From positions 62,001-126,000 of the forward strand of contig JAEUTQ010000011.1 of NCBI GenBank assembly GCA_016787445.1: a DNA stretch of 64,000 nt. The letters run 5' to 3'. The notes beneath the pieces were generated by a model that saw only the letters and a list, made by a program, of their open reading frames with translations, ran no database searches and had not been told where the DNA came from. This stretch comes from Bacteroidia bacterium. Lineage in GTDB: Bacteria; Bacteroidota; Bacteroidia; B-17B0; Aurantibacillaceae. Made by a program: the position numbers and the translations under genes. Of the stretch, positions 1-5,258 are shown piece after piece; the first letter of the stretch is position 1, and every line of letters starts with the position of its first letter.

Positions 1-129
1 AATTAAAGTTACAAAAATTATCTTATCAAAGAAAGGAACTACATCTCCAAACAGTTAAAACGGCGTTCCTCATACCTTTCACGAAAAAATCATGCCAAAA
101 CCATTACTGTATTTATTGGTCAATCTTTG

Positions 130-494
130 GAATCAAAACTATAATGCCCTTCGGGCTCGTTCCTCAGTTTTGTTTTGCCTTTTTCGGGGTCTGCGGCATT
201 CGTCGAATAAGCCTCTTTTGTCCTGCCTAGTCGCTCCGGCTTTGGGCAAAGGGCTGCAAACTGGTTGGTGTATAATTTTATTGATGTTTGCATCTCTTTT
301 GCCCTCGTTTTGCGGGTGCGTGGCACAAATCAAAGCCTCCCCGGATCTTTTCATGGGCCACGCTGTCAAAATAGGTTGCAACCACTCCATTCTGGGCTCC
401 TTTACTCATCCTCGCTCCACAGTGTTCGCATGCCGTAGACGACTTTTCAAAATACTCAGTAAAACTCGTATATTTAAAATTAGATTTCATCTGT
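130..494. other. GC-rich block without a convincing gene
   Basis: By hand count G+C is about 51% over 181-420, against roughly 35-40% in the flanking genes. Reading frames stay open for 80-150 codons on both strands, but the translations are of unlikely composition, overlap one another and run into the start of the nuclease gene. A short hairpin (GCCC-TTC-GGGC near 147-157) and an inverted pair gggcaaa/tttgccc (about 244-305) are visible. The block may be a structured DNA or RNA element, a recombination site, or a remnant of a mobile element. I see nothing definite in bases 1-129. Confidence 0.35.
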
Positions 495-3371
495 ATGAAC
501 ACCCTTTCACTCTTTCCACAAAACTTTTTAGCACCATATTTATCTGATTTCTCTTTGTCTGCAATCCCTGATATAAGAAAGATAACAGAACGTATTAAAG
601 GTCTAAATGACGAAGTACAATCCGGCAAACTCGAAAGTTTAAAAGAAGAAGAAATCAAATCCCGATTTATATCAACCTTCTTTGGTGATGTTCTGGGATT
701 CAACTATGGTAACTCCAACAAGTGGTTACTTCGCGAAGAAAAGAAATCTGTTATTGATGCAACGAAAGCAGATGCAGCTCTAGGATATTTTTTTGTTGAC
801 AAATCTAAAGATGATGTCAGAGCAGTTGTAGAACTAAAGAATGCAAAAACTAACCTCGATGACGCCCAAAGTAGACCCGATAAACAAAGCCCCGTTGCAC
901 AAGCCTTTGCTTATTCATCAAAAACAGGAGGCAATTGCAAGTGGGTTATTGTTTCAAATATGATCGAGACTCGTTTCTACGCATCTGGAGATCAATCAAA
1001 GTGTCAAGCTTTTTTTCTAAAGGATTTAATAAATGAAGATAAACTGAAGGAACTACTTTATTTATTTCACAAGGATCGTTTCATAAAGGAGGATGGAATA
1101 TCAGGAACAGAAAAGTTAACCGAATATTTAAAAACTCAAAAGCAGACCGAAAGTGAATCTGTGCATATCATAGATAAAATGTATCACTTTCTCCTTGGGT
1201 TTAAAGGGCTTGGTTTCGTTGATCCGAATTTTATTGCCGCTTCATCCCCCTTTAATATCCTTAATGAACACGTTTGGCATTATGGTGAACGTATTCTGTT
1301 TACTATTAACACAGAAATATACGAATTGCTGAATGCCATTACTATTCATGCAGATTCAATTAGTTTTTCTGCTGAATACGAAAAGGAGTTGATCAATAAC
1401 AATGTTACCGATCCAAAGGGCAAAATGGAATCAGTATTCAGGTTTCTAAATCAATGCATGATTCATAAAATAAGTGGGGTAAAAGATTATAAACAAATTG
1501 AGGAAAGAAGAAAAAAGGCAATAGGCTTTTCTTATAGAACAATGTTTGATTTCAAAGAGGGCGTTGATGGAGTAACAAAAAATATATGGATTTCACGATC
1601 TGAAAAGTGCGATTGTCTGTTGTGCAATTATAGAAGCTTAAATTTTAAATCTTTGATTAATAAATTAAAAGCAGCAGACGGAGATCCAAAAAACAACACT
1701 CTTGAATATGCATACGGAAATTACTTGACAGCAACAGATAACTTCAAAAAAGCATATCTTATTTATAAAGAGATTGAGAAAGACTTAAAGGGAAAAGATA
1801 ATAATGCGCCGGCATATTTCGTATGTAAATTAAACTTAAAACTTCTTCATAATTTAATTTTGGATTACGAGTTAGCGGATAGTAAAGAAATCATGGGTAA
1901 CATCAGGTCAGTTGATCTGGATAAGGTCATATATGATGAAATAGAATTCTCGGTTACCAAGCAAGTAAAAAAGTACTTGATAGATGTTAAAGAAGATGCT
2001 CTGATATATAAGCTTCAAGATCAAATAGAAGAGACTGTTTTCCAAATAGAAAAACTAAAACGACTCTATGATGGCGGAGGTATCCAACAATTCGGACCAA
2101 ATCTTCCAAGTAACCTTTCAGAGAAATATTATATGCTGTTCGCCTACACGCATCGTAATTATATTATCTATGATATATTTAAGAGGTATACGACGCTCAC
2201 AGAAAAAGTATTTAGAGGCTTGGTTATTAGCACTAAGATTCCCGATTTCGGATTGTCGGAGTTCAATGATTTTTTACTAACGGAAGCGATTTTGCATGTT
2301 GCACCTTCAGTGATGCAAGAAATTCTAAAAGATGTAGAGCAAATTCCAGTATCGGCTGAAACATCCGAATTATTAATAACGAAAGTTAGTAATTACTCGA
2401 ATTCCTATTTTGATTCCGCTTTATTTGGCTTTATGGTGAATAGTGATTTGAAAGCTCAGTTGCACAATTTTAAATTTCAGGATCGCTTTACGAATATATT
2501 CGCCAATTTATTTGCAATTCTTTCTAGAATTAACATCACGAAAGAGCAATTTGCTAAGTGCTCACCTTCTCTACTTACTTTTCTTAAGCTTGAAGATGAG
2601 CTAGCTTGGTATGACTTACGCGAGTTGGCCGAGTTTATAAAGAGAAAGGGTGATGTGGTTGATTCTAAGTTTCTGATCGATCTTCTAAGTCATGTAGTCG
2701 AGAAAACATCTTATGGAAGAAACAAGTATGAAAACCTTATAAAGCAGATCCCTTTGGTATTGGAAAAACATTATCCTAGCGTCAAGGTAACAAATTCAAC
2801 TCTTGTTCAGAAGGCTATTTTACAATTTAAATCACCACACAGTAATTCTAATAGTTATGACGACCTCATAAATTTAACTAAAGTATGTGATGAGAATTGC
2901 CGTGGTATTCTGTTTAAAGGTTTTGAAGATAGCCTTGATTCAGATTTTAATAAATATTTTTATGAGCTTATTTTGCGATGTACTAGTTATGATCATTTCA
3001 AAAAAGACTATTTTCAAAAGTATTGTGATAAGATAAATGAAAGAGTTAATCGAAATTTTTGTAAATACGGGGATTTGGAATTAACCGATTTAGCCTTTAT
3101 CAACATGATTACTTTAGTGTATAATAAAGATCTATTTAGTGTCTCAATGCTTGATAGTATCGTTACATACAATGATTTCGAAAGTTGGTTACTAAGGCCT
3201 TCAAAATTTCATTATACTCTTTTTAATCCTTTATGGCTCATAGAAGTTAATCGTCCGGAAATTTTAAAAAAATTTCAGAACAATTCTTTAATTAAAGCGG
3301 CTATTGAAAAAGAATTATCCCAAAAATTCAATTCCCAATTGGCCGAAATAAAATATAAATACTTTAGCTAA
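495..3371 (+). CDS. PD-(D/E)XK nuclease-like protein with TPR/helical body, putative defence protein
   Basis: This is a 958-residue protein. Residues about 40-165 resemble the N-terminal nuclease domain of type IIG/type I restriction enzymes. They have an acidic helix (EEEIKSRF, 51-58), D93 in KADAALGYFF, E113-x-K115 in VVELKNA, then SPVAQAFAY and KWVIVSN, matching the D...ExK...Q order of that fold. There is no methyltransferase or helicase motif. A C372-x-C374-x2-C377 cluster is followed by TPR-like helices (about 400-480) and an all-helical C-terminal half with no recognised domain. The HEPN gene follows after 8 bases, suggesting a two-gene operon. It sits at the end of a probable island. 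The nuclease domain is supported by visible motifs. A defence role is inference from architecture and context. No membrane segment or signal peptide is seen. Confidence 0.6.
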   Translation: MNTLSLFPQNFLAPYLSDFSLSAIPDIRKITERIKGLNDEVQSGKLESLKEEEIKSRFISTFFGDVLGFNYGNSNKWLLREEKKSVIDATKADAALGYFFVDKSKDDVRAVVELKNAKTNLDDAQSRPDKQSPVAQAFAYSSKTGGNCKWVIVSNMIETRFYASGDQSKCQAFFLKDLINEDKLKELLYLFHKDRFIKEDGISGTEKLTEYLKTQKQTESESVHIIDKMYHFLLGFKGLGFVDPNFIAASSPFNILNEHVWHYGERILFTINTEIYELLNAITIHADSISFSAEYEKELINNNVTDPKGKMESVFRFLNQCMIHKISGVKDYKQIEERRKKAIGFSYRTMFDFKEGVDGVTKNIWISRSEKCDCLLCNYRSLNFKSLINKLKAADGDPKNNTLEYAYGNYLTATDNFKKAYLIYKEIEKDLKGKDNNAPAYFVCKLNLKLLHNLILDYELADSKEIMGNIRSVDLDKVIYDEIEFSVTKQVKKYLIDVKEDALIYKLQDQIEETVFQIEKLKRLYDGGGIQQFGPNLPSNLSEKYYMLFAYTHRNYIIYDIFKRYTTLTEKVFRGLVISTKIPDFGLSEFNDFLLTEAILHVAPSVMQEILKDVEQIPVSAETSELLITKVSNYSNSYFDSALFGFMVNSDLKAQLHNFKFQDRFTNIFANLFAILSRINITKEQFAKCSPSLLTFLKLEDELAWYDLRELAEFIKRKGDVVDSKFLIDLLSHVVEKTSYGRNKYENLIKQIPLVLEKHYPSVKVTNSTLVQKAILQFKSPHSNSNSYDDLINLTKVCDENCRGILFKGFEDSLDSDFNKYFYELILRCTSYDHFKKDYFQKYCDKINERVNRNFCKYGDLELTDLAFINMITLVYNKDLFSVSMLDSIVTYNDFESWLLRPSKFHYTLFNPLWLIEVNRPEILKKFQNNSLIKAAIEKELSQKFNSQLAEIKYKYFS

Positions 3372-3379
3372 ATTCACTG

Positions 3380-4390
3380 ATGCCTGAACAAATAGAAACT
3401 GAAGTCTACGGGATATTTAGTAACATTGATCATACGATACTAAAATTAAATCCGATTTTACTGAAGCACGGTTATGAGTTTGAAGCTGTGAGTCTTTCCA
3501 AACTAGAGCTACAATTTTCTGAAGTGTTTAATATCCCTCGTCATCAAAAGCCACAACAGAACATTATTAAGAGTATCACAATGGACGGAGTTAATTCAGT
3601 ATCTGAATATTTTGACGACGCTCTGAATTATTATTTTCCATTAACTAAGCATGCCGATGAAGAGACCATTCTAAATCAAGAGGTCTATTTACTTAAACTG
3701 TCCAAAAACATCAATACTGAACATGGGGATAACTATTACATGGTTGGAGAATCAGAGATAGCTCTTTTGCAAATTTCGGTGTTTTCTGATAAGCTAATTA
3801 GGGTTCTAAGGTTGTATAAAGAAGGACAAATTAATTTTCAAGGCTACTTTTCAATTTTCAAAAAGGAACGTAAAGTTCTTCGCAAAATAAAAACAGCAGA
3901 TAAACCCATCTCTTCAAAGGTTGATTATACAATCTCTTCAGATGATATTTCTGTTTTATCAGAACTAATTAACTCTCCCACTTTGATTCCACCACATTTA
4001 TCATTAGCGGTAGATAGTTTTGAATTAACTTACAAGATACCTGAGCCGAATATTAAATTTACTTTATTGATAATTGCCCTTGAGAGTATTTTTAACAGAA
4101 GTTCTTTAGAGCCCATTAGACACATTATATCCAGACACACCGCTATTTTGCTTTCTTCAGATACTAATGAGTTCGATCTTATTTCGTCACAAGTAAAAAA
4201 GCTTTATGATACTCGAAGTAAGATTGTACACGGGTCAATGCCGATACAAAAATCTGATCAAAGTCTTATAGAACAGCTAAGGGCATTAGAAAACATAGTG
4301 CGCAAAGCAATATCTCGAATTATACTTTTAAATGACGTGAAAAGCAAGGATGAATTGTATGAATATTTAAACAAGAAGGGACTTAATTGA
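3380..4390 (+). CDS. HEPN-domain protein (Apea-like), putative partner of the upstream nuclease
   Basis: This is a 336-residue soluble protein. The C-terminal third (about 225-320) has the helical pattern of Apea-like HEPN domains: a hydrophobic helix LLIIALESIFN, then LYDTRSKIVHG carrying R279-x4-H284. R-x4-6-H is the catalytic motif of HEPN ribonucleases. The N-terminal two thirds are not recognised. It starts 8 bases after the nuclease stop on the same strand, so co-transcription is likely. HEPN proteins are frequent in toxin-antitoxin, abortive-infection and CRISPR-associated systems, either as RNases or as structural partners. Which applies here cannot be told from sequence. Confidence 0.6.
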   Translation: MPEQIETEVYGIFSNIDHTILKLNPILLKHGYEFEAVSLSKLELQFSEVFNIPRHQKPQQNIIKSITMDGVNSVSEYFDDALNYYFPLTKHADEETILNQEVYLLKLSKNINTEHGDNYYMVGESEIALLQISVFSDKLIRVLRLYKEGQINFQGYFSIFKKERKVLRKIKTADKPISSKVDYTISSDDISVLSELINSPTLIPPHLSLAVDSFELTYKIPEPNIKFTLLIIALESIFNRSSLEPIRHIISRHTAILLSSDTNEFDLISSQVKKLYDTRSKIVHGSMPIQKSDQSLIEQLRALENIVRKAISRIILLNDVKSKDELYEYLNKKGLN

Positions 4391-4571: not shown

Positions 4572-5258
4572 TTAGTTATTTTCCTTATAACAATCCCAAC
4601 AAAGTGGTTTGCTCATTGTGGTAGATCCGTCATCACCGCAACTGTGACAAACATTCTCTTTGTAGTCATAATTTTCGTATCGTTTCCAACTGGAATAGCA
4701 ATTAGGACACAGCGGTTTATCTGGATCAAAGTAAATTTCACCTTCACAACGTATGCAATATCCTGGCTCATCATCTTCAATTTGATAGGATTTCTTGTTT
4801 GATTTGTTTTTATCACGATTTTCTATCAAACAATCAGTCACAAGTTTTGCAGCCTCTTCTAAATTTTTTTCTATTAATGAATTTGGAATTCTTAATGTAA
4901 AAAAACCTTCCCTGAGAGAGTGAAAGGTCCGCTTTAAATCACTTAGCGCTTGTTTGGAATTATGCACATGATGTTTTCCATCAACTTCTATATGGATTTT
5001 TGCATCAGGCACGGAAATATCAATAGTTTTGTGACCATCACTACTTTCAAGGATCGCAGGTACACCAAGTTTTTTTAATGCAAAATAAAGTGTGATAGAA
5101 GTATCCGTTGCCGTAGTATATTTAATTACACCTTTAAACCAATTTTGACAGCTTTTACACAAAGGTTGTCCGTAATTTTGAGTTGAATAACTAAATACAG
5201 CGTTATCTATCTGGGATTCGCAATTAATACAATCACTTCGTTTACTATAATAAGACAT
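4572..5258 (-). CDS. Zinc-ribbon protein with DUF559/Vsr-like PD-(D/E)XK nuclease core
   Basis: This is a 228-residue protein. Residues about 60-145 match the small DUF559/Vsr-like endonuclease fold: D80 in TIDISVP, then E91-x-D93-G-K95-HH, a conserved D..R (D107, R110), and a beta strand GFFTLRIP. Four-cysteine ribbons flank it: C10-x2-C13/C34-x2-C37 at the N-terminus, and C168-x2-C171/C184-x2-C187 and C204-x2-C207/C220-x2-C223 at the C-terminus. It probably acts as a nucleic-acid nuclease with zinc-bound DNA- or RNA-binding ribbons. It is convergent with the nuclease-HEPN pair and lies inside the same probable island, so it is likely accessory cargo. No partner is assigned. Confidence 0.55.
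   Translation of the reverse strand: MSYYSKRSDCINCESQIDNAVFSYSTQNYGQPLCKSCQNWFKGVIKYTTATDTSITLYFALKKLGVPAILESSDGHKTIDISVPDAKIHIEVDGKHHVHNSKQALSDLKRTFHSLREGFFTLRIPNSLIEKNLEEAAKLVTDCLIENRDKNKSNKKSYQIEDDEPGYCIRCEGEIYFDPDKPLCPNCYSSWKRYENYDYKENVCHSCGDDGSTTMSKPLCWDCYKENN

Follow-up and report, generated by a model that had tools for sequence, protein, structure and literature searches.

A DSR2-like sensor body joined to a predicted restriction-type nuclease in a Bacteroidia bacterium, and relatives of the body with other effector domains

Introduction

The DSR2 protein (defence-associated sirtuin 2) of Bacillus subtilis (PDB 8wy8, 8k98 and others) is inactive as a tetramer; binding of the monomeric tail tube protein of the phage to the middle and C-terminal domains causes a change that is transmitted to the SIR2 heads (PMC11087589, PMC10981675, PMC10973363). 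In this study, a gene with this type of architecture is described in a Bacteroidia bacterium of the Aurantibacillaceae (GenBank assembly GCA_016787445.1, contig JAEUTQ010000011.1, positions 62,001 to 126,000), in a stretch of 64,000 nucleotides which is called the window in the following. Gene 1 (495..3371, + strand), recognized by its open reading frame and by full-length relatives, codes for a protein of 958 amino acids. Judged from sequence comparisons, it is probably a single-protein anti-phage sensor-effector with DSR2 architecture, in which the NADase head is exchanged for a DNA nuclease. With DSR2 it has in common a sensor body of about 700 residues comprising the middle and C-terminal domains, the order effector, middle domain and C-terminal domain, a length of about 1000 amino acids and the organization as a single gene. 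It differs from DSR2 by an MmeI_N-type nuclease in place of the SIR2 NADase head, by the lack of the tail-tube site-1 loop, and by a C-x-C-x2-C cluster just ahead of the DSR2-aligned region.

The exchange of effectors is common in bacterial immunity. The short prokaryotic Argonaute (pAgo)-APAZ systems (SPARDA and SPARSA; PMC10810196) follow the same logic with an overlapping set of exchangeable heads (DUF4365, SMEK, and SIR2), but their sensor is an Argonaute-APAZ part sensing nucleic acid, and no homology to the body was found here. Among the neighbouring open reading frames of the body genes no short Argonaute was seen, a search with PIWI profiles not having been made. Type IIG/IIL restriction-modification (RM) enzymes of the MmeI family share the N-terminal PD-(D/E)XK nuclease with gene 1, whereas their methyltransferase and target-recognition domains were not found in gene 1, which has the DSR2-like body instead. 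The defence RNases of the HEPN type (ApeA/Apea-like and RiboL-PSP HEPN) resemble the adjacent gene 2 in the Rx4H motif and in weak matches of its relatives, but gene 2 lies below all family cut-offs and is not tied to gene 1. For nuclease-bearing DSR2-like proteins, no description was found in the family libraries or in the open-access papers searched, where DSR2 appears only with SIR2.

The DSR2-like Body of Gene 1

The body family analyzed here comprises about 20 Bacteroidota loci, and the genomes sampled were those of Bacteroidota relatives, about 2000 in number. A profile of 10 bodies without any SIR2-bearing member found the full-length chains of DSR2 with an expectation value (E) of 0.0022 and a 707-residue construct at 1.5e-4. 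With a profile of 19 bodies, residues 422-1000 of DSR2 were matched at E 9.2e-9; all seven PDB matches listed for this profile were DSR2, and no other PDB protein was found at E<=10. Furthermore, the SIR2-bearing relative at locus L062 matches DSR2 end to end (E 3e-29).

The structural comparison gave the same partner. Residues 217-957 of the gene 1 model were superimposed by VIA-align on residues 296-1004 of DSR2 with a Z score of 26.2 and 604 aligned residues, the next unrelated chain being found at Z 9.5, and a Foldseek search of the model against DSR2 yielded E 1.6e-10. The junctions coincide as well: the similarity to a type IIG-like protein of Pontibacter stops at residue 217, and the DSR2 alignment starts at residues 217-223. 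N477, N598, F954, and W958 (DSR2 numbering) are near-invariant across the members, which have the C-terminal motif FDYxxFxPxW in common. By homology, in sequence as well as in the predicted structure, residues 217-958 (1143..3368, + strand) are the middle and sensor domains of DSR2. Scans of gene 1 and its relatives showed that the family libraries do not recognize this body. The cluster C372-x-C374-x2-C377 (1608..1625, + strand), a putative metal site, is conserved in 90% or more of the body family.

A preliminary description of the locus, made from the sequence alone, had spoken of a TPR-like (tetratricopeptide repeat-like) helical body. The helical scaffold stands, and it is more exactly described as the middle and C-terminal domains of DSR2; the main point, an exchangeable N-terminal effector on a DSR2 sensor body, had been missed. 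The genes and the residues named there (D93, E113, K115, the cysteine cluster, R279, and H284) are all present as open reading frames and motifs.

The N-Terminal Nuclease

The N-terminal effector of gene 1 (residues 1-217; 495..1145, + strand) resembles the MmeI_N / type IIG-like PD-(D/E)XK nucleases, its D...ExK site (D93, E113-x-K115) being intact. Residues 28-215 match phrog_31645, a phage family of 1075 residues, at E 2.2e-24, and close relatives of gene 1 score at or above the curated cut-off for Pfam MmeI_N (PF20464). The residues D93, E113, and K115 are invariant in 7 of 7 nuclease-type relatives, likewise E51 and E52. In the predicted structure, which has a mean predicted local distance difference test score (pLDDT) of 82.8, a helix (51-66) is followed by the strands 78-83, 92-98 (with D93), and 108-114 (with E113), a helix (133-143) and a further strand (150-154). 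In the model, this alpha-beta-beta-beta-alpha-beta order is the core order of a PD-(D/E)XK nuclease. The nuclease domain proposed before stands.

The best match outside the family is a Pontibacter plasmid protein with an annotated TaqI-like specificity domain (44% identity over residues 6-217). All plasmid and phage matches outside the family cover only residues of gene 1 below about 240, and most of the matched proteins carry annotations as a DNA methyltransferase or a type II restriction enzyme. Based on this, the N-terminus is, as far as sequence comparison goes, the nuclease portion of a type IIG/IIL restriction enzyme from which the domains for methylation and specificity are missing. The family library scans of gene 1 gave no match to methyltransferases or helicases except for a type IIG model covering only residues 91-221, in agreement with the earlier statement that neither is present. 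A plain solitary restriction enzyme was rejected, since the body of gene 1 is neither a methyltransferase nor a specificity domain.

Relatives and Exchangeable Effector Domains

Full-length relatives of gene 1 were identified in a congener (L002, 52% identity), in a genome of the Cyclobacteriaceae (L005, 36%), and on a Hymenobacter plasmid (L006, 38%), as well as at L034:4795, L054, and L055; genomes of another Bacteroidota genus are among those that have them. More distant relatives have only the body in common with gene 1. The body was found in 9 of 299 genomes of one genus sample (about 3%). In a sample of one class, near-complete matches were present in 5 of 325 genomes, with one more match split across contigs and three weak partial ones. 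Phage records match gene 1 in the nuclease domain only. A search of viral_contigs with five proteins (gene 1, the HEPN protein, and the DUF4365, PIN, and SIR2 members) gave no match, and plasmid searches with other bodies yielded only the Hymenobacter plasmid.

On the bodies recovered by the body profile, heads of several kinds are found. The MmeI_N nuclease is found in the window, in L002, L005, L006, L054, and L055, and in the second gene of L034, whereas the first gene of L034 has a Mrr-like head, as has L007. A DUF4365 head was identified in L036 by Pfam (2e-6), in L056 and L058 by their resemblance to L036 together with weak PADLOC matches, and in L016 from position and motif only. SMEK heads (SMEK_N, E 1.8e-29) are present in L057 and in the partial L014, and a PIN_12 head in L035 (E 4.5e-16). 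Finally, SIR2_2 heads were assigned by Pfam in L059 and L077 (E 3.6e-27 and 5.5e-26), and SIR2 heads by strong matches to the SIR2 of ThsA in L061, L062, and L063.

Two loci are arranged differently. In L034 (2117-8668) two body genes stand in tandem, 44 bases apart, the first with the Mrr-like and the second with the MmeI_N-like head. In L078 (5437-9770) a body gene of 761 amino acids without an effector of its own is flanked by two EAD11 genes, one of the two matches being sub-threshold, and is separated from the upstream EAD11 gene by about 11 bases. This is possibly a split version of the system acting in trans.

In a tree of the bodies, all MmeI_N members form one clade (support 100/99), and the Mrr, PIN, and DUF4365 members are intermixed within one clade (support 100/99). 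The well-supported branches require at least two origins of DUF4365. Since the same body carries differing heads in its relatives, it appears to be the constant sensing and regulatory part, and the N-terminus the exchangeable killing part. With roughly even confidence, it can be proposed that one phage-protein-sensing body drives at least six chemically different effectors (a NADase, restriction-type nucleases of four kinds, and a PIN RNase), with one form working in trans by way of EAD11 domains, and that DSR2 is one variant of a modular class of protein sensors without an NTPase, following a logic like that of Avs or CBASS.

The HEPN Gene and the Genomic Setting

Gene 2 (3380..4390, + strand) follows gene 1 on the same strand after a gap of 8 bases and codes for a HEPN-like protein of 336 amino acids with the motif R279-x4-H284. 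Both residues are invariant across six relatives, so that the HEPN motif reported earlier holds. The assignment is based on the Rx4H motif, on weak family matches in single relatives (one each with PF18735 at 0.0011, PF18737 at 0.0031, and PF18739 at 0.05), and on a Nostoc relative annotated as HEPN domain-containing. The protein itself matches no family above the cut-off; its structure model is poor (pLDDT 47), and Foldseek with that model found nothing at E<=0.001.

A profile of gene 2 and five relatives was run over every open reading frame of the fetched loci. The window is the one locus in which the HEPN family adjoins a body gene; it does so in none of the 21 other body loci, a few of which are short contigs with partly unseen flanks, and no body gene lies near the HEPN gene in any of the five other HEPN loci. 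The two-gene module of nuclease and HEPN protein postulated in the preliminary description, which had named a lack of adjacency elsewhere as a refutation, is therefore not borne out. In L002 a convergent HNH gene comes after the body gene, and in L005 and L006 the body gene is solitary. The relatives of gene 2 are found between the mod and res genes of a type III RM system (L041:4767-10429) and near AbiE-like genes (L040), the neighbours in both cases being named from sequence reading, and in front of a DEAD/DEAH helicase gene on a Nostoc plasmid (L024); in L038 and L039 they stand alone. Most simply, these comparisons present the HEPN gene as an independent neighbour of defence type. From the spacing, genes 1 and 2 are likely co-transcribed, and there may be a recent functional pairing of the two in this lineage.

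Several relatives of the body are located among genes of defence type. AbiEi/AbiEii and a type IIG RM enzyme are directly upstream of the SIR2-type member of L061 (3571-9839), and a type IIG RM enzyme overlaps the SMEK-type member of L057 (261-6723); both arrangements are possibly operons of RM plus abortive infection. Further neighbours are a caspase and a DUF4365 protein (L054), a cytosine methylase (L035), and a dynamin-DUF4365 protein (L031), and the tandem genes of L034 are followed by the gene of a pPIWI-associating nuclease (PADLOC Aga_Nuclease, E 3e-73). Together with the DSR2 homology of the body, the defence genes beside its relatives make a role of gene 1 in defence likely, as had been suggested.

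In the window, gene 2 is followed on the opposite strand by a further gene of defence type, whose product combines a zinc ribbon with a nuclease region like that of DUF559/PvuRts1I (4572..5258, - strand; PF04480 above the cut-off). From about 5.9 kb onwards, ordinary chromosomal genes were recognized by sequence reading, namely one for a YjdM/PhnA domain protein and then an efflux-pump operon, and because of these the locus is seen as an island edge, as had been proposed before. Upstream on the same contig, a protein of 957 amino acids matches PADLOC Upx over residues 255-930 (E 2.7e-20). This Upx-like protein belongs to a row of unfamiliar genes upstream of the window (L030:6493-15380), and a 202-amino-acid HEPN-like gene lies on the opposite strand (L030:15391-15999).

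A non-coding block (50..383, + strand) precedes gene 1. Its only conserved counterpart, with pieces 77-93% identical, precedes the corresponding gene of the congener G052, and the block is present as a single copy. An integron attC site, a repeat or a known RNA were ruled out by the single copy and by the lack of an Rfam match.

Proposed Mechanism and Alternative Explanations

In a mechanism modelled on DSR2, the body of gene 1 would hold the nuclease in check, probably by dimerizing through the middle domains as DSR2 does. It would bind a phage protein made during infection, change its shape and thereby free the nuclease, which would then cut DNA and halt the production of phage, perhaps with the loss of the cell. 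By analogy with DSR2, a structural protein of the phage may serve as the trigger. Since the tail-tube site-1 loop of DSR2 is absent, the ligand or the binding mode probably differs; thus, from its sequence, the body is the same kind of sensor, with a ligand that may not be the tail tube protein.

Several observations weigh against gene 1 as a nuclease-bearing relative of DSR2. The sequence identity to DSR2 is low (only about 14%), and the body of one SIR2-type relative used as a single-sequence query found no match to DSR2. The AlphaFold input alignment of gene 1, used without templates, contained SIR2-type rows, so that the structural match depends in part on the match in sequence. L495, L497, and L498 of DSR2, which are essential for its binding of the tail tube protein, are situated in an insert which is absent from 19 of 19 members, and most of the other tail-tube contact residues differ. 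Regarding the heads, the Mrr_cat match (8e-4) is slightly below the curated cut-off, and a profile of the N-terminus found no relative among the solved structures. The low identity (14-20%), together with the tendency of helical repeats to inflate fold scores, would suit an assembly of unrelated helical-repeat proteins grouped by composition, with the DSR2 match as a solenoid artefact. This is highly improbable, however, as only DSR2 chains were found at E<=10, other solenoids reach at most Z 9.5 versus 26 for DSR2, and the members share near-invariant residues as well as the FDYxxFxPxW motif.

The remaining alternatives accept the domains and assign them another task. Gene 1 could be an enzyme of the restriction or type IV-like kind, with a helical body that reads a DNA sequence or modification and a nuclease that cuts incoming DNA directly. 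The nuclease domain is indeed common to type IIG/IIL enzymes, and Mrr, DUF4365, and MmeI_N are all folds of the restriction type; but the same body also bears SIR2 and PIN heads, which are not DNA restriction modules, it is homologous to a protein-binding sensor, and the family scans found no methyltransferase or target-recognition domain, which makes such an enzyme quite unlikely. Alternatively, the HEPN RNase and the nuclease-sensor could act jointly, for instance as a toxin with its regulator, or as a pair of effectors set off by the same alarm. Co-transcription is suggested by the 8-base spacing on one strand, and the HEPN relatives inside defence operons, like that between mod and res in L041, would suit an accessory effector. 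Such a two-gene system is nevertheless rather unlikely, given that the HEPN family is near none of the 21 other body loci and the body gene near none of the five HEPN loci, and that the closest relative of gene 1 is followed by the HNH gene instead. A single-protein sensor-effector built like DSR2 is regarded as the probable nature of gene 1.

Implications

DSR2 has been described as a sirtuin system. The heads other than SIR2 mean that the family is defined by its sensor rather than by the NADase. Searches based on SIR2 miss most of the members found here. The modular body opens the way to head-swap chimeras between members and provides candidates for new phage triggers. In many Bacteroidota, it is predicted that phage-triggered cleavage of DNA or RNA would replace the depletion of NAD.

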